Assembly (NCBI GenBank): GCA_024228575.1
Contig: JAAETH010000510.1
Coordinates: forward strand, 1-40,050
Reading direction: 5' to 3'
From: Actinomycetes bacterium
GTDB taxonomy: Bacteria; Actinomycetota; Acidimicrobiia; Acidimicrobiales; Poriferisodalaceae
DNA: 40,050 bases
The notes beneath the pieces were generated by a model, which ran no database searches, was not told the DNA's origin, and saw only the letters and a list, made by a program, of their open reading frames with translations. Of the stretch, positions 19,094 to 28,500 are shown in pieces (within the stretch, counting starts at the first letter, position 1; every line of letters begins with the position of its first letter). Both the position numbers and the translations under genes were made by a program.

Positions 19094-20674
19094 TCAGGTC
19101 GACAGAATACGGTTGGCCCCGTCTCCCCAGTAGCGGTCGCGAAGAGCCCTCTTGTAGAGCTTGCCCGTTGGCAGTCGCGGCAGTTCGTCCTCGTAGTCGA
19201 CAGAGCGGGGAACCTTCTGACGCGAGAGGTGTTCGCTGCAGAACGTGAGCAACTCCGCGGTGAACTCGTCGTCGGCATCGATCCCCGGCATGACCTGAAC
19301 CACAGCCTTTACCTCCTCACCAAGGTCGGCATTCGGGACTCCGAACACCGCCGCATCTGCAACCTTTGGGTGAGTGATGAGAAGGTTCTCGGTCTCCTGG
19401 GGATAGATGTTCACTCCACCGGAGATGATCATGAACGTCTTGCGATCGGTCAGATAGAGGTAGTTGTCCTGGTCGATGTAGCCGACATCGCCGACAGTCG
19501 TCATCGTGCCGTCCGGCGAAGTCGCTTCTGCGGTCATGGCCGGATCGTTGTAGTACTCGAACTCGGTGGCCGTCTTGAACCAGATGGTCCCAGGCACTCC
19601 CACCGGAAGGGGCTCCATGTCCTCGTCGAGGATGTGCAGATCGCCCAGAATGACCTTGCCGACCGAACCCTTGTGGCTGAGCCACTCCTCCGAGTTGCAC
19701 GCCGTGAAACCGAGACCCTCGGTAGCGCCGTAGTACTCGTGAACAATCGGCCCCCACCACTCGATCATCTGCTCCTTGACCTGAGGAGGACACGGCGCGG
19801 CCGCATGAACGGCGACCTCAAGGGAGGACAGGTCGAAACGGGTACGTACCTCGGGGTCGAGCTTCAGCATCCGGCTGAACATCGTGGGTACCAGCTGGGA
19901 ATGGGTGACCTGGTACAGCTCGACGAGACGCAGATACTCGACCGGGTCGAACCACTCCATGATGATGACGGTTCCACCCCGGCGCAACGTCAGGTTCGCC
20001 GCTGTCTGTGGAGCCGAGTGGTAGAGCGGTGCAGGCGACAAGTAGATCATGTCCTCGCGGAATTGCCACAGATCGTCGAGGAACGTGAACAGCGGCATGA
20101 TCTCTGACGGCGGCTGCTCGGGAAGTGGGCGGATGATGCCCTTGGGCCGACCGGTCGTACCCGACGAGTACAACATCGCTCCCCCCAGGACCTCGTCGGC
20201 GATGGGGGTCGGAGGCATCGACGCCACCGCTTCGTCGTAGTCGACGACCTCGCCAGTATCGACCGTGGCGCGCGATGCCACCTGGCTACCGCCACCGACG
20301 ACGAGGATCAGCTCCAGTCGCGGCACCATCGCCGCTGCATCGAGGGCGACATCGAGCTTGGCTGAGGAGGTGATCAGCACCTTCGACTCGGAATTGTCGA
20401 GGATGTAGGCGAGTTCTTCCGCGGTCAGGTACGAGTTGACGGCGGTGTAGAAATGGCCCGACCGTTCTCCCGCGGCACAACACTCGAGATAGCGGTTGTT
20501 GTTCTCCATGAAGACGGAGTAGTGGCCCAAACGTGCGAGACCGCGTCTTCGCAGCAGGTGCGCAAGCCGGTTGGTCCGCTCCTCGAACCGGGCAAAACTG
20601 ACCGATTCACCAGTTGAGGCCATGATGAACGCCGCCCGCTCGGGGTTGGCAATTGTGTGGTTACCTGGGTACAC
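19094..20674 (-). CDS. Acyl-CoA synthetase (AMP-dependent ligase)
   Basis: 526 residues from GTG 20674 (M-Y-P-G-N-H-T), which has GGAGAGGGG just upstream; the frame stays open to 20788 but that part overlaps the divergent CoA-transferase gene. The adenylation motifs are present: YSSGTTGRPKGI (169-180), YYGATEG, TTVGDVGYID, TDRKTFMIISGGVNIYP and the catalytic C-terminal Lys in PTGKLYKRAL. It activates a carboxylic acid to its CoA thioester at the cost of ATP. It starts YPGNHTIANPERAAFIMASTGE, resembling the CaiC/FadD-like actinobacterial group. The substrate acid is unknown. The divergent CoA-transferase suggests both act on related acids. Confidence 0.9.
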   Translation of the reverse strand: MYPGNHTIANPERAAFIMASTGESVSFARFEERTNRLAHLLRRRGLARLGHYSVFMENNNRYLECCAAGERSGHFYTAVNSYLTAEELAYILDNSESKVLITSSAKLDVALDAAAMVPRLELILVVGGGSQVASRATVDTGEVVDYDEAVASMPPTPIADEVLGGAMLYSSGTTGRPKGIIRPLPEQPPSEIMPLFTFLDDLWQFREDMIYLSPAPLYHSAPQTAANLTLRRGGTVIIMEWFDPVEYLRLVELYQVTHSQLVPTMFSRMLKLDPEVRTRFDLSSLEVAVHAAAPCPPQVKEQMIEWWGPIVHEYYGATEGLGFTACNSEEWLSHKGSVGKVILGDLHILDEDMEPLPVGVPGTIWFKTATEFEYYNDPAMTAEATSPDGTMTTVGDVGYIDQDNYLYLTDRKTFMIISGGVNIYPQETENLLITHPKVADAAVFGVPNADLGEEVKAVVQVMPGIDADDEFTAELLTFCSEHLSRQKVPRSVDYEDELPRLPTGKLYKRALRDRYWGDGANRILST

Positions 20675-20757
20675 GAGATCCCCTCTCCGCTCCCCGCCCG
20701 AGCCTAGGGGACACACGAAGCAGCACCGAGGCCACATCACTCGTAGCATCGTCGACG

Positions 20758-21954
20758 ATGTCCGATTCTTCTCCTCCCCCAGGCCCACTCGCTGGTGTGC
20801 GCGTCGTAGACCTCACCAACGTCGTCATGGGACCGCTTGCCACCCGAATGCTCGGCGACATGGGCGCCGACGTCATCCGGGTCGAGGAGCCAGGTGGCGA
20901 CGTCATCAGGGCCTACCCACCGATGCGCAACCCGGCGATGAGCGCGTTCAGCATCAGCTTGAACCGCAACAAGCGCAGCATCGTGCTCGACCTCAAGACC
21001 GATGATGGCAGTCGAGCCCTGTTCGAGCTGATCGCCACCGCCGATGTTTTCGTCACCAACATGCGACGATCGGCCCTCGAACGCCTCGGCCTCGACGAGG
21101 ACGGGGTCAGAGCCGCCAAGGACGACATCATCTATTGCATATCGAACGGGTACGGCAGCGACGGGCCCTACGCTGATCGCGCCGCCTACGACGACATCAT
21201 GCAGGCTGCGTCGGGTCTGGCGTCGACGTTCAAATGGTTGGGCGATGATCCCAAACTGGTCCCTAGCATCTACGCGGACAAGGTCACCGGCGTACACATC
21301 GCCTTCGCAATAGCCGCGGCACTGCACGGCAGAGCGACCACCGGCAAGGGCACCTTCATCGAGGTCCCGATGGCCGAAACCATGGCTGCATTCAACCTGA
21401 TCGAACACCTCGGTGGCTCGACGTTCGAGCCGGCGTTCGGGGGTTTCAGCTACTCGCGCATCAAGACCGCCAATCGTCGGCCTCGTCAGACAACCGACGG
21501 ATGGATCGTGCTCCTGCCCTACAGCAGGGCCAACTGGGAAACCTTCTGGGATTACGGTGGCCGATCGGAACTAGAAGACGATGAACGCTTCGGGACCGCC
21601 GCGAACCGGGTCAGGTTCGCTGACGACCTGTACCAGATCATGGGCGAGATCATCGCCGACCGTTCGACGGAAGAATGGCTCTCGTTTTGTGCAGAGAATT
21701 CGATACCGGTTTCCGAGGTGCTCGATCTCGAGTTCCTCGGCGATGACGAACACTTCGCTGCGGTGGAGCTGATCCAGGACGGCGTGCACCCCACCGAGGG
21801 CGCCTACCACTGGGTGCGTGACCCGATCATGTTCGACGGCGAACACAGCCGGCTTCGACAACCGGCACCCAGGTTGGGCGCCGACACCGCCGAAGTGCTC
21901 GCCGAGCTGGGATGGACCACCGACGAGATCGAACCGCTGACGGCAAACGAATAG
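20758..21954 (+). CDS. CaiB/BaiF-family (type III) CoA-transferase
   Basis: 398 residues from ATG 20758. It begins with the family pattern PGPLAGVRVVDLTNVVMGPLATRMLGDMGADVIRVEEPGGD. The catalytic Asp145 is in YDDIMQAASG, the D-x-x-x-Q-A-x-x-G signature, where it forms the aspartyl-CoA intermediate. The enzyme moves CoA between carboxylic acids, and length fits a single-subunit homodimeric member. It is divergent from the acyl-CoA synthetase with 83 bases between starts. A 14-bp palindrome (20747-20760) covers its start codon. The substrate cannot be inferred. Confidence 0.93.
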   Translation: MSDSSPPPGPLAGVRVVDLTNVVMGPLATRMLGDMGADVIRVEEPGGDVIRAYPPMRNPAMSAFSISLNRNKRSIVLDLKTDDGSRALFELIATADVFVTNMRRSALERLGLDEDGVRAAKDDIIYCISNGYGSDGPYADRAAYDDIMQAASGLASTFKWLGDDPKLVPSIYADKVTGVHIAFAIAAALHGRATTGKGTFIEVPMAETMAAFNLIEHLGGSTFEPAFGGFSYSRIKTANRRPRQTTDGWIVLLPYSRANWETFWDYGGRSELEDDERFGTAANRVRFADDLYQIMGEIIADRSTEEWLSFCAENSIPVSEVLDLEFLGDDEHFAAVELIQDGVHPTEGAYHWVRDPIMFDGEHSRLRQPAPRLGADTAEVLAELGWTTDEIEPLTANE

Positions 21955-22070
21955 GCGAGACCGATGTGCTGACATCTCGCTGATCAGGCGTGCCTCCGAG
22001 GTGAACCTCGTGGGCGATACGCTCACCCCATGCGCAACAGATGGCGCTTCGCGCAATCCTGCAGGAACCG

Positions 22071-22814
22071 ATGAGGCTCATCCCCCTCGAAATCGGGCGT
22101 GTCGAGGGTGACCTTCGCGCCATCACAGGCGAGGACGGATGGGTGACGCTTCCCGTCGCCGGCTGGCTGATCGAGCACAGGCACGGACTTGCCCTGTTCG
22201 ACACAGGCATGCACGCCGATCTCCAACACACCACCGCACGTATCGGTCGCAATGCCGAGGTCTTTAAGCCCGATTTCAAGCCGGGCGAGGAGTTGACCGC
22301 CCAGCTGAGTCGGCACGGTATACATCCGGGCGATGTTGCTCATGTGATCCTCAGCCATCTGCATTTCGACCATGCGGGCGGAACCTGCGAAATTCCCGAT
22401 GCTCGGCTGGTTGTTCAACGAGCCGAATGGGAGGCGGGCCACAACCAGCAACTCGTCGATGCCGGGGTCTACACACCAGACGATTACGACCTGGGACACG
22501 ACGTCCAGCTGATCGACGGAACCCACGACCTGATGGGCGATGGCTCAATCGTCTGCATCCCAACTCCGGGACACACGCCGGGGCACCAGTCGCTGAGGGT
22601 CGAGCTCGATTCGGGACCCGTGGTTCTGGCCGCCGACTGTATCTACTTCCAGCGGATGCTCGACACGATGACGGTTCCTCGGTTCGGCACTGATCTCGAC
22701 CAGCAATTCGATTCGATGCATCGGCTCGCAGCAATGCAGACCGATGGGTGTCGGCTCATCTTCGGTCACGACCTCGAACAGTTCCGCGAGATACCGATCG
22801 CCGGACTCATCTGA
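22071..22814 (+). CDS. Metallo-beta-lactamase-fold hydrolase, N-acyl homoserine lactonase-like
   Basis: 247 residues from ATG 22071, preceded by AGGAA; the frame is open 30 bases further upstream without a better start. The two-zinc site is complete: His96-x-His98-x-Asp100-His101 in SHLHFDHAGG, His168 in PTPGHTPGHQS, Asp189 in LAADC and His233 in IFGHD. The HLHFDHAGG form and overall length are typical of the AiiA/AttM lactonase branch, which opens acyl-homoserine lactones or other lactones. Without a biochemical assay the natural lactone is uncertain, as many members act on other lactones. No LuxI/LuxR pair is in the window. The redoxin and an MFS gene follow on the same strand. Confidence 0.88.
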   Translation: MRLIPLEIGRVEGDLRAITGEDGWVTLPVAGWLIEHRHGLALFDTGMHADLQHTTARIGRNAEVFKPDFKPGEELTAQLSRHGIHPGDVAHVILSHLHFDHAGGTCEIPDARLVVQRAEWEAGHNQQLVDAGVYTPDDYDLGHDVQLIDGTHDLMGDGSIVCIPTPGHTPGHQSLRVELDSGPVVLAADCIYFQRMLDTMTVPRFGTDLDQQFDSMHRLAAMQTDGCRLIFGHDLEQFREIPIAGLI

Positions 22815-22928
22815 CAACAGCGATACCCAAGACAGATTCCCGATGTTTCATCACGTGTGTCTCCGCGGCCACGGTCCTCTCACATCCGCCGGGAAGTTCC
22901 TGGCTCCCCGATCGGTTTCGAGTTGTTG

Positions 22929-23501
22929 ATGAAGCAGAATTCGAGTCGGACAACACTCGCCAGGCCGGCCCTGGGAGAACGCGCTCCTGCGGTCGACCTC
23001 ACCGATATCGACGGTCGGACATGGACCCTGGCCGACCAACGCGGTCGCACCCAGATCCTCATCTTTCACCGTCACATCCATTGACTTCCCTGTGCAGCTC
23101 ATGCCGTCGCCGTGCGCGAACGGTTCGCCGATCTGGGTTCAGACACCGACGTCGTCCTCATCACCTTCACCAAGCCCGAACGACTCTCTGCGTACCGGGA
23201 CATGAACGATCTGCCGTTCACGATGTTGATCGACAAGCACCGGCGCACGTATCACTCGTACGGTCTGGCTCGGGGCAGCTTCCGCGACGTGTGGGGATGG
23301 AAGGCAGCGAAGCGTTATTGCGAGATCATCAGACAAGACGGCCTTCGCAACCTTCGACGACCCGAAGAGGACACCCGCCAGCTCGGCGGCGACTTCGCGG
23401 TCGGCCCAGACGGCGTGCTGGTGTACGGCTTCTGGGGCGAGGGTCCCCATGACCGGCCTTCGGTCGACGATCTGGTCGAGGTGGTCGAAGGAACACGATG
23501 A
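22929..23501 (+). CDS. SelL-related redoxin, probable selenoprotein with in-frame TGA (Sec52)
   Basis: 190 residues if TGA 23082-23084 is read through; otherwise a 51-residue stub. Before the TGA, LGERAPAVDLTDIDGRTWTL and then ILIFHRHIH are the start of an AhpC/TSA-like peroxiredoxin fold up to the first active-site turn. The codons right after it read L-P-C-A-A-H-A-V-A-V-R-E-R-F, and the same frame continues to a normal end (FAVGPDGVLVYGFWGEG). The TGA thus stands exactly at the first position of a C-x-x-C motif, giving U52-L-P-C55. There is no frameshift, and both sides have the same G/C-rich third positions. A hairpin fitting the bacterial SECIS pattern follows. ATG 22929 lacks a strong ribosome site; GTG 22857 is an alternative. 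A nonsense mutation remains possible. Its role would be thiol/peroxide redox chemistry. Confidence 0.8.
23082..23124 (+). promoter_or_regulatory. Candidate bacterial SECIS element with Sec-coding TGA
   Basis: After TGA 23082-23084, CCGTCGC (23104-23110) pairs with GCGA-(A)-CGG (23116-23123). This gives a 7-bp stem with one bulged A and a 5-base apical loop, CGTGC (23111-23115). An extra G-U pair (23103/23124) can extend the base. The loop has G in its second position, and it begins 26 bases after the TGA. Both fit the published general bacterial SECIS pattern (short stem, small loop with G in the first two positions, about 16-37 bases from the UGA to the loop). SelB would bind here. Hand-folded, not computed. 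Confidence 0.62.
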
Positions 23502-23584
23502 CGAGCAGGCACACCCGGTGTCCGCCTACCCGCTAGCTGTGCCGACCTGGGACATCAGCGTCACCCATCGATATCATCCGACCG

Positions 23585-24793
23585 GTGAAACAACGGCGAG
23601 GCACTTCGACGGAAGTACTCGCCCTGGGTTTGGTGACGATCACCGCCTACGGGTCGTGGATGTACGGCTTCGGCGTCTTGATCGACGCGATCAGCACCGA
23701 CACAGGCTGGTCGATGACCATACTCGGGCTGACATACGGCCTCGCCCAGGTGATCACAGCCCTCGGAGCGTTCGTCGGAGGGCGCTTGCTCGACCGGATC
23801 GGGAGCATCGGACCTTTCAGCATCCAGGCCACCCTCGGAGCCGGGCTGCTCATGACCGCTACCTGGATGACCCATCCGGTGGCTTTTGTGCTCGTGTACG
23901 GGGTCGGCGGGGGCATCGTCGGGGCGACCGGCTTCTACCACGTCACCACCGTCGTTGCCTCCAGGTCGCGTCCAGACGAACCCGAGCAGGCGATCGCCAG
24001 GCTTACCGTGATCGGCGCGTTTTCCAGTCCCATCTACCTTCCGATCACCGCCTGGTTGTTGTCGCAGTGGCACTGGCGCAGCGTTGGACGGGTACTGGCG
24101 ATCTCGTGTTTCGTCGGAGCGGGACTGGCCATCGCGTTCGCCCGCGGAGGACAAACCGTCGGCGAGCTCGGCCCATCTCCCAAGCCGCTGCGCTCGCTGC
24201 GCGCAGCGATGTCGCGCCCCGACACAAGGAGGATGTTGCTGGGGTTCGTCTGCGCCGGGATCGCGTTCTCATCCGTCATCGTCTACCAGGTGCCGATCCT
24301 CGCGGCGACCGGGTTGACCCTGAGCACCGCCGGTTCGGTCGCCGGCTTTCGAGGCCTGTGCCAAATCCTCGGTCGGGTAGGCCTGATACGAATGGTCTCA
24401 CGTTTCGGAGCCGGACCACTGTTACGTGCTGCCTATTGGACGACGGCGGCAGGGATGGGCCTTCTCCTCGTGCGGTCGCTCGCGGCTGGCGTCGCGTTTG
24501 CCATCATCGCGGGCGCAGCCCTTGGGGCAACAGCACCGCTGCAAGCGATGTACGCCCGCGCCAGGTTCGCGGGAGACGACCTCGGCTTGCTGATGGGGAT
24601 GCAAGGGGCTGCCCTCGGACTGGCCGGAGCAACCGGACCGCTGCTCGGAGCGGTCATACGAGACAGGACGGGTTCGTGGGGACCGACGATCCTGATCGGG
24701 ATAGTCGGCCTGGTCGCTGCAGGTGTACTGCTCACCGGCAGCGGGCACGACGAGTCAGAATCTGCGATACCGGCTACCTCTCCCGACGACTGA
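23585..24793 (+). CDS. MFS transporter (monocarboxylate/oxalate-formate-like)
   Basis: 402 residues from GTG 23585, 83 bases after the redoxin gene. It has about 12 membrane helices, beginning VLALGLVTITAYGSWMYGFGVLIDAI. The MFS signature between helices 2 and 3 is GGRLLDRIGSIGPF, and in the second half it recurs only weakly (GRVGLIRMVSRFGAG). The helix-1 and helix-2 pattern (YGSWMYGFGVLIDAISTDTGWSMTILG) resembles the monocarboxylate and oxalate:formate antiporter branch. A role in uptake or export of a small organic acid is possible; the substrate is unknown. It ends tail-to-tail with the carboxymuconolactone decarboxylase-family gene. Confidence 0.87.
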   Translation: MKQRRGTSTEVLALGLVTITAYGSWMYGFGVLIDAISTDTGWSMTILGLTYGLAQVITALGAFVGGRLLDRIGSIGPFSIQATLGAGLLMTATWMTHPVAFVLVYGVGGGIVGATGFYHVTTVVASRSRPDEPEQAIARLTVIGAFSSPIYLPITAWLLSQWHWRSVGRVLAISCFVGAGLAIAFARGGQTVGELGPSPKPLRSLRAAMSRPDTRRMLLGFVCAGIAFSSVIVYQVPILAATGLTLSTAGSVAGFRGLCQILGRVGLIRMVSRFGAGPLLRAAYWTTAAGMGLLLVRSLAAGVAFAIIAGAALGATAPLQAMYARARFAGDDLGLLMGMQGAALGLAGATGPLLGAVIRDRTGSWGPTILIGIVGLVAAGVLLTGSGHDESESAIPATSPDD

Positions 24794-24851
24794 CATCGTC
24801 CCGGTTCGCCGATCTTCGTGGCGACCCCGAGGGTCCGCGATCTTCTTCCTG

Positions 24852-25415
24852 CTAGATATCCCAGCCGGGCAGATCTGGGTCGGGCTGCACACCAAACGAG
24901 TTGAGCGCCATCGACACCAGGTTGTACTGGCCAACCGTGAAGACCAGGTCCATCATCTGCTCCGTCGAGAAGTGTTCGCTGAGCGCAGCCCAGGTTTCTT
25001 CCGCGATGAAAGCATCGGCGTGTAGCTCATCTGTGGCCCTCAACACGAGCGACTCGACCTCTGCCCAGCCATCGGCTTCTGGACCCATCTGCACTCGACG
25101 AATCTCGTCATCGGTCATGTCGGCGGCACGGGCGATCAGGACGTGCTGGCCCCATTCGTAGCCGGAGCGACACAACCACCCAATCCGCAGGATCGCGATC
25201 TCGCGCTCGCGAATACCCAGCGATGACTTGCCCATGATGTGGTTTGCGAACACCATCCAGCGGCGAGCCAGATCGGGGTGGTTGGCCATCGTTCGGAAGA
25301 TGTTGAGCACCCGGCCGGAGTCGCCGAAGGGAACCATCAGCTTGGCTGCATCATCGCTCCATTCGTCAGGGCCGAGGGCGGGAACGCGAGGGTGTTCGAG
25401 TCTCATGCGGGCCAT
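24852..25415 (-). CDS. Carboxymuconolactone decarboxylase-family protein
   Basis: 187 residues from ATG 25415; ATG 25406 and an upstream extension to 25457 are alternatives, and no start has a strong ribosome site. The core LGIREREIAILRIGWLCRSGYEWGQHVLIA has the family's helical signature, with Cys82, Glu87 and His91. AhpD-type members with peroxidase-reducing activity have C-x-x-C; here only the first Cys is present (C-R-S-G), so that activity is unlikely. The conserved Y-E-W-x-x-H instead points to the decarboxylase/hydrolase-like branch, whose substrates are mostly undefined. No membrane segment or signal peptide is seen. Confidence 0.88.
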   Translation of the reverse strand: MARMRLEHPRVPALGPDEWSDDAAKLMVPFGDSGRVLNIFRTMANHPDLARRWMVFANHIMGKSSLGIREREIAILRIGWLCRSGYEWGQHVLIARAADMTDDEIRRVQMGPEADGWAEVESLVLRATDELHADAFIAEETWAALSEHFSTEQMMDLVFTVGQYNLVSMALNSFGVQPDPDLPGWDI

Positions 25416-25435
25416 TGTCGTCCGTGGTTCGGTGT

Positions 25436-25502
25436 TCGGTTGAATCCGCCGAGACAAGAACGTGCTTTACAGCCCGACCGAAGCGGTGGAGTATTCAACC
25501 GA
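25436..25502. promoter_or_regulatory. 10-bp long-spaced inverted repeat between divergent genes
   Basis: TCGGTTGAAT (25436-25445) and ATTCAACCGA (25493-25502) are perfect reverse complements 47 bases apart, in the gap between the carboxymuconolactone decarboxylase-family gene and the membrane patatin. The right arm ends 22 bases before the patatin ATG. They could be two half-sites of a looping regulator or a leader stem. There is no independent support. Confidence 0.35.
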
Positions 25503-25524
25503 CGGCAAGCCGGGGGGTAGCCGA

Positions 25525-28500
25525 ATGATCAAGCAGGGTGATGCGGTTCGAGATAGTCCAGATGGTTCGGGCCAAACGGCAGCGCTGCGGGTCCTGGGGA
25601 TCGTCGGCGCGGTCATGACCGTTGTGGGTGCACTGCTGGCCGGCAGCCTCAACGAGCTCCAGCAGGCCCTCGACGGCAGCCGCTTCGAGACGGCTCTAGC
25701 CTCGATGCCAGATGCACGAAGGAATGTGTGGGCCGACATCGTCGTGATGGCGCCCGGATATCTTGGGCTCTGTGTCGCACTGATGGCCACCAGAACCCGG
25801 GAACCGAAACGGCGTGTGGGAGCCGGGTGGTCGATCGGATTCATCGCCGGAGCGTTTGTGGCTGACCAGATCGAGAACATCCTGGTCCTGTCCGCCATCT
25901 CAGAAGGTTCGCCAGACGACGGTCTGGTGTCGGCCATCCGCATGTTCGGAAGCATCAAGTGGACCCTCATAATCGGTGGCGTCATCGCTGCGTTCGTCGC
26001 ACTGATACAGAAGCCCGATGCGGACGATCACTTCTTTCGTTGGCGTAGCCGCTGGCACCGCGCGATGGTGGCTACCGGCGCAGTCTTGGTCATCGCCGGC
26101 AGCGCACTGATGGCGATCGACGGTGGGGTCAACGATCTCCAGACAGCGATCGACGAAACTGCGTTCGGGCTGTTCGACCGCGCACGTTCCCCCGCGAGGG
26201 CATCGTTGTACGACTCTCTGGTGTTCGTTCCCGGCTACCTGCTTCTGGGCGTCGGCGCGTTCCTCGGTCTCGGTCAACGACAATCGAGATCGCGGACCAT
26301 CACCTCGACAGCCGACGAGCCGGAAGAGGGAAACGAGTTCATCGTTCTCGGCGACTACACCAAACTCGGGGTTGAGCAGAGGCTTGATGTCATCGTTGCG
26401 ATGAGTCCAGAACACCTCGAGTTTGCCGAACAGTTTGAGGCCACACAGGCCAACGACCTCAGCAAGAGCCGACCCGAACGGAGCGCAGCGGCCCACAACG
26501 CCGCCAACATCGGCTCAGCTCGACTCGCCAACAATCGCCGCGCACACCGAGCCATTGGCGGCATGGTCTTGGTCGTGCTCGCCGCCGTCGCCGACTGGGT
26601 CGAGAACATCACCTTCGTGGGACTTGTGGATAGCCCAGATGCGGCGAGCTTCGAAGTCATGCGAAGTGCCGGCACGGTGAAGCTGGCCATGTTCGTGCTG
26701 GCGCTGTCGACATGGTTCTGGTTCATCTCGCACCGGCCGGTCCCCCGTCGTCGACCCCGACCACACGACTCGATGCCAGACTCAGCGATGGATGACTGGC
26801 ATCCGTCCCAGAACCGACGAGGTGTCTGTCTGTCGGGGGGCGGGATCCGCTCGGCCGCGTTTTCGATGGGTGCGGTTCAGGCCCTGGACGACGACGCTCT
26901 CGCTCCACCAAGCGAGAAGTCGTACGTCAAACGATCTCGATACCTCGCCGCCGTCTCCGGTGGTGGCTACTTCGGCGCCGGGTTTGCTGCCAGCAACTAC
27001 CCGGCCGACCGTTCGGGCGCAACAAACGGGTGGGCCACGGGATCGCCGGAGGAACGTCACTTTCGCGACAACTCGTCGTACCTGGTCCCCGACCTGTGGC
27101 AGGGGGTGAGAGGGTTCAGTCGACTGGCAGCCGGCGTCGTCGTAAACGTGGCCGTCATCTGGCTGGCGCTGTTCGTCGTGGCACGACCGGTCGGTTGGCT
27201 GATGAACGATATCCATCCCCAGCTGGCAACCCCTGGCTCGACGATCTTCACGCCCTCAGAGCCGATCGAACTCGGAACCTCGTTGACCATCATCGACCCC
27301 AACGGCGGTGCAGCCCTCGAGGACGGCGACGTCCTCGAGTTCCAGCTGCTCACCAGCTCCGGTTGGACCGTGTGTTTCGCTCCTGGTGTTCGAGCCAAAC
27401 CATGTGAACACTCCGCCGTACCGGCGACACCCGACCCCGGGAAGAGCGAGAACGTCGGGGCGTTCACGGCGACCGTCGAGCCGCTGGTTCCCGGTCTGGT
27501 CCGTTGGGAGGCCGGCACGGTCGAGATCACCCGCCAGCCCCTGCTCGGACTGTCACTCGACTCCGCCGACTCGGACACTTCCTCCCACGGATCCGGATCG
27601 GACTGCAACGACGGCGCTCTCATCCGACCGCTCGCGCTTGTCGACGGTGAGGCCGTCTTTGCCCCGGGTACAGGCGACGACGTGTCGGTGCGCAATGCCC
27701 GCTTCTGCGTCGAGCTGTCTCACGACGTGGTGCTGCTGGAGGACACGGCGAGGTCGGTTGACGACATAGGCAAGCTCCTGGTCATCGACGGCGACGCCCA
27801 GGTCGTTCCTCGCTCGATCAGCGGTCTGGCCATCCGCCCGGGATTCACCCCTCGCGACTGGATGTGGGCCGGCTCGATCATCGTCCTGGCCATCGGACTG
27901 ATCGCATCCATGTCGGTCATGTTCGGGCGCTTCACCGGGCGCATCAGGTGGGCCGGACGTCTTGTCGGCACCTCGAGCATCGCCGCCGGCCTCCTCGTGT
28001 TCATGCTTCTCGTCGGACTGCCGTGGATGGTCACCGACGGATTGAGAGCCGTCGCAAGAATGGTCTCGTTGCTGCCTGGTGTCGACGGCACAGAATCGGC
28101 CCTCGGATCCGGGTTGGTCGACTATGTGCTTCCCTCGGGTGGCTTCTTGGCAATCATCTACACGGCGCTACAGGGATATCTGGCGTCGAACAAGGGTGCA
28201 GCGGGATCCGATCCGACCGCAGGGACCGCCAGAAGGATCTGGAATCGTTTCCGGGGACTCGACGACAAGCTCGGGTGGTACGAGCTCTCGATCAGCAAGA
28301 TCGTCGCCACCGTAGTCGCAGCGGTCGTGCCGTTCATCTTGTTCGTCACGATGGTTCAATACGCCAGCGCCAACGGCCCGAGCGGGCGCCTGATGGGGTT
28401 TGCGTTCATCCGCGACAGCCTTCCCGATTCGCTGGTGCTGCCGGAGCTGACCAAGTTCGTGCTGGTCGTCATCGGCCTGGGGTTGTTCCACCTCACAGCC

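Follow-up and report, generated by a model that had tools for sequence, protein, structure and literature searches.

Reading frame through the UGA codon

The locus at 22929..23501 on the forward strand raises the question of whether the TGA at positions 23082-23084 ends a gene or encodes an amino acid within it. The window, that is, the whole stretch of 40,050 nucleotides analysed, is contig C510 of a 6.15-Mb draft genome assembled in 960 contigs. When 22929-23501 was translated with TGA read as U, 190 residues with a single internal U at residue 52 were obtained, running from a predicted ATG start to a TGA stop at 23499-23501; positions 22929-23498 read MKQNSSRTTLARPALGERAPAVDLTDIDGRTWTLADQRGRTQILIFHRHIH-U-LPCAAHAVAVRERF... 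under the same convention. The sequence around residue 52 is FHRHIH-U-LPCAAHA, in which Cys55 (23091..23093, + strand) is the second, invariant residue of a U-x-x-C pair.

A sequence-only reading of this DNA had proposed a single 190-codon frame through one TGA, with G/C-rich third positions undisturbed by that codon. The translation confirmed the frame, and the G+C contents at codon positions 1, 2 and 3 were alike before (0.65, 0.51 and 0.69) and after the TGA (0.70, 0.46 and 0.74). Translation table 11 gives a different picture, as the sole ORF that it lists is 23112-23501, with a GTG start and 129 residues. This mechanical ORF is what speaks for the idea that the TGA terminates, in which case the locus would be either a pseudogene in decay or the source of two short products, one of residues 1-51 and one from a restart at GTG 23112. 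We regard this idea as very improbable. The protein is constrained to the same degree before and after the TGA: pN is 0.25-0.32 in either part, well below pS (0.51-0.82), and dN is similar upstream and downstream. Furthermore, a restart at GTG 23112, rightly recognized in the sequence-only reading as the only listed start and as one that loses the active site, would drop residues 52 and 55, which are both invariant in relatives, and this GTG is itself the Val codon of a conserved A-V-R, within the loop of the hairpin described below. The earlier proposal of one gene instead of two, in which Sec opens the U-x-x-C motif of a SelL-related redoxin, withstood each computational check that the sequence-only reading had suggested: selA, selB, selC and selD are in the genome, homologues have Cys or Sec at residue 52, and a conserved hairpin follows the TGA.

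Conservation of the UGA and selenocysteine machinery

When 99 related genomes were searched, ten matches were obtained at E 1e-32 or better, with 35-58% identity across the TGA. These ten and three weaker matches each contained one TGA, located in the same column, and the remaining matches were Bcp/PrxQ-like proteins without TGA. Because ten relatives align across the TGA, each with its own TGA at the same column, the frame is open beyond chance; 22929-23501 has an in-frame UGA in a conserved reading frame, as expected of a bacterial selenoprotein. At the level of the class, a family member was present in 109 of 395 genomes, most with one TGA. The motif column was read in genes parsed with a required downstream Q-[LVI]-G, which left about half of the fetched loci unparsed; TGA was found in 40 distinct genes (this one included) and TGC or TGT in 8, and no residue other than Sec or Cys occurred at column 52 among the parsed genes, in agreement with what the sequence-only reading had expected of homologues. 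The Cys forms belonged to genomes of the class itself and to records labelled Myxococcota, Acidobacteriota and Actinomycetota. The UGA aligned with Cys in L045 and L074-L077 and, in a sister clade with the motif RHFG-[U/C]-L[HL]C, in L052, L053 and L068. Cys forms were reached by scanning with the alignment and with patterns containing Cys; a scan of the genome contigs with the single protein as query gave no match.

In the 26-row alignment, R48, H49, U/C52, C55, H58, D102 and Q151 were invariant, and the R-H-x-x-[U/C]-x-x-C-x-x-H motif had no exceptions across the relatives. In the tree, the window gene was placed with L026 in a group of ten genes that all have Sec, and the supported branches forced at least three Sec/Cys changes. 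Since Cys homologues exist and the source genome is a draft of 960 contigs, one might suppose that an error in sequencing or assembly turned the TGC or TGT of a Cys redoxin into TGA. For practical purposes this is refuted by the conserved TGA, which is shared at one column by 40 genes of separate genomes, and the presence of the Sec machinery in the genome also argues against it.

This machinery, the search for which had been suggested in the sequence-only reading, comprises all four components. A tRNA-Sec (selC) was located at C548:30105-30196 (66.8 bits against a gathering threshold of 47; anticodon TCA by ARAGORN), selA at C548:40069-41223 (392 bits), selB directly after selA on the same contig (260 bits) and selD on contig C431 (370 bits). 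Such a set of selA, selB, selC and selD is what is expected of a genome encoding bacterial selenoproteins. Within the 40,050-nt window no tRNA genes were found, and an Rfam scan of 20000-26000 gave only sub-threshold matches, none related to Sec. As a separate observation, selA matches in the source order mostly start at profile position 53-73, compared with 1-8 in many families elsewhere in the class, which suggests that SelA has diverged at its N-terminal end in this order.

The SelD gene (C431:1878-2798) carries a TGA itself, at the active site (GAGUGCK), the classic position, and SelD of the source genome appears to be a selenoprotein. Similarly, an FdhA-like gene (C862:11230-13095) contains one in-frame TGA (CNRT-U-HAPSV) and is probably a Sec formate dehydrogenase. 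From the TGA codons in these two genes, both of which belong to classic selenoprotein families, the genome therefore appears to use Sec elsewhere. Among class genomes, selA was detected in 72 of the 79 with a TGA copy and in 188 of the 316 without (Fisher p = 1.3e-8), a value which is only indicative because the genomes are related. Among near relatives with a TGA copy, the proportion was 12/13. In seven TGA-bearing genomes, including G056 (96% complete), selA was not found, perhaps because of draft gaps.

The frame is open whatever the TGA encodes, and the codon could in principle stand for an amino acid other than Sec, such as Trp, owing to a changed code or ordinary read-through. Such a reading is hardly credible: relatives that lack the TGA have Cys and never Trp at the aligned position, the gene's own stop is a TGA, and a tRNA-Sec with anticodon TCA is present together with selA, selB and selD. 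Taken together, we infer from the sequence comparisons that UGA 23082 is almost certainly decoded as an active-site selenocysteine of a redox protein.

The hairpin downstream of the UGA

A putative bacterial SECIS hairpin of 8 bp with one bulged A lies at 23103..23124 (+ strand), 19-40 nt after the UGA. Its apical loop, CGUGC (23111..23115, + strand), begins 26 nt after the UGA and has G as its second nucleotide; the folded 29-nt segment holding the hairpin has an energy of -10.2 kcal/mol. According to published rules for bacterial SECIS elements (PMC13188914), the loop should contain 3-9 nt with a G in its first two positions, the stem 4-16 bp, the distance from the UGA should be 16-37 nt and the energy -7.5 kcal/mol or below. 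The hairpin satisfies these rules, which is weak evidence by itself, as 48% of random TGAs pass. The part of the sequence-only reading that concerned the hairpin was thus upheld as to position and rules, and by conservation downstream of the TGA in relatives, but the single-gene hairpin is uninformative alone because, of 500 random TGAs taken from the window, 241 passed the same test. Folding of 52 nt gave z = +0.92, and the hairpin of this gene exceeded synonymous versions only slightly in stability (p = 0.067).

The comparative data are stronger than the single-gene hairpin. The loop G-T-G was invariant in 19 close Sec homologues, whose covariation score was matched or exceeded in 3 of 500 shuffles and in none of the slid controls; pairs with two-sided changes in the hairpin were no more numerous than in shuffles. 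Relative to synonymous codon choices, the mean hairpin z was about -0.98 in 31 Sec genes and -0.70 in 4 Cys genes, and this measure therefore does not separate Sec from Cys genes. In the sister clade (L052, L053, L056, L062-L064, L067-L070, L102-L108 and L111-L115), the Leu codon of the loop was TTG in 19 of 20 Sec genes, versus 31 of 378 (8%) other Leu codons, and in none of five Cys genes, where CTG or CTT was found instead. This TTG bias is the clearest indication of Sec-linked selection on the RNA sequence.

We are inclined, with some reserve, to see here a widespread, two-clade group of U-x-x-C SelL-related selenoproteins in one class, with repeated switching between Sec and Cys and with a SECIS hairpin that spans the A-V-R or Q-L codons and loses its loop in Cys forms; part of the group would fall below the cut-offs now used in annotation and has probably been entered in error as truncated genes.

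Family, fold and relation to known redoxins

The 22929-23501 protein was matched by the Pfam families AhpC-TSA (PF00578; 60.9 bits, cut-off 26), Redoxin (35.2) and AhpC-TSA_2 (33.9). NCBIfam NF040769 (SelL_rel_redox, "SelL-related redox protein") matched it over its full length, at about 116.2-116.3 bits (E 1e-33, profile positions 2-172 of 173), and the [U/C]-x-x-C motif lies in an AhpC/TSA-like domain, as in proteins of this family. The curated cut-off of 120 bits is not reached, and automatic naming by NF040769 would therefore miss this copy. All 26 of the aligned relatives matched the same model, several above the cut-off (e.g. L030, L048-L051), and this copy was the sole gene of the kind found in the source genome.

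AlphaFold2, run on the 26-row alignment with Sec modelled as Cys, predicted a thioredoxin-like fold (pLDDT 93.3) in which a helix, 53-64, begins directly after residue 52. The top PDB matches by Foldseek included Bcp4/PrxQ, ResA and AhpE. In profile alignment, Sec52-x-x-Cys55 fell on the C-x-x-C of ResA, and the peroxidatic Cys of PrxQ coincided with Cys55. The sequence-only reading had placed the TGA at the nucleophilic Cys of a redoxin; this is correct for the first Cys of a thioredoxin/ResA-like C-x-x-C but not for the peroxidatic Cys of peroxiredoxins, which corresponds to Cys55. Overall, 22929-23501 very probably encodes a 190-residue thioredoxin-fold, SelL-related selenoprotein in which UGA 23082 is decoded as Sec.

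Its function would most likely be that of a UxxC thiol-disulfide or peroxide-reducing oxidoreductase. SelB and tRNA-Sec would read UGA 23082 as selenocysteine, aided by the hairpin that closely follows it. Located at the N-terminal end of helix 1, Sec52 would be the nucleophile of the U-x-x-C pair, and its selenolate would attack a disulfide or a peroxide. Cys55 would then resolve Sec52, giving a Sec52-Cys55 selenenylsulfide to be reduced by an external thiol. This catalytic cycle is drawn from established redoxin chemistry, and by that analogy we find it reasonably probable. Another arrangement, which concerns the mechanism and leaves the selenoprotein assignment as it is, would be a true peroxiredoxin with a peroxidatic Cys55 assisted by Sec52. 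The alignment of Cys55 with the PrxQ/Bcp peroxidatic Cys and the presence of PrxQ and AhpE among the best fold matches are in its favour, but Sec52 replaces the Thr of the Prx TxxC motif, and position 52 is invariably Sec or Cys, as in ResA-like C-x-x-C proteins; we consider it possible but rather unlikely. Around the gene of the proposed UxxC oxidoreductase, metallo-beta-lactamase-fold and CoA-transferase genes lie upstream and an MFS transporter gene downstream; when the short flanking regions of 25 related loci were searched, none of the three was matched.

Recognition of this gene corrects one that would otherwise be annotated as truncated or as a double ORF, and gives this lineage a selenium-dependent redox protein. 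Pairs of Sec and Cys forms in which loop features are kept or lost offer natural material for testing what a bacterial SECIS requires when the genome is rich in G+C. The general understanding of selenoproteins is unchanged by it.

Among known systems, NF040769 proteins are like the 22929-23501 protein over the full length, although this copy scores below the family cut-off. SelL, whose motif is UxxU, is also a Prx-like redoxin whose motif begins with Sec, but its second residue is Sec where here it is Cys; as the second residue is Cys in all relatives, U-x-x-U is absent from them, and the earlier description as a SelL-related redoxin with U-x-x-C instead of U-x-x-U is corroborated by this and by the full-length NF040769 match. 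ResA, a thiol-disulfide oxidoreductase, has its Cys pair at residues 52 and 55; the present protein differs in having Sec for the first Cys, a conserved R-H before the motif and an H after it. The Bcp/PrxQ peroxiredoxins share the fold and, in the first 100 residues, are about 30-35% identical to it, but have neither Cys nor Sec at residue 52. The classical peroxiredoxin PxxxTxxC with its peroxidatic Cys is not found here, the Thr position being Sec52. Plasmid searches with the protein gave Bcp at about 30% at best and otherwise no match, and a literature search on Acidimicrobiia selenoproteins returned nothing relevant.

Prx-like thiol:disulfide oxidoreductase selenoproteins with UxxC, or GOS Prx-like 1, share AhpC-TSA (PF00578) and U-x-x-C with this protein, the comparison being one of domain and motif. 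They were tabulated in a 2008 marine survey, where SelL is also termed a Prx-like protein (PMC2398784), and UxxC members of Pfam AhpC-TSA appear in later reviews (PMC9312934, PMC13188914). A 'ULPU-containing selenoprotein', named in PMC5029168 without a sequence for comparison, could be a relative. The word 'undescribed' in the sequence-only reading was too strong, because descriptions of UxxC Prx-like selenoproteins go back to 2008 or earlier and NF040769 exists. U-x-x-C Prx-like selenoproteins are already known as a type, to which 22929-23501 adds one more member.
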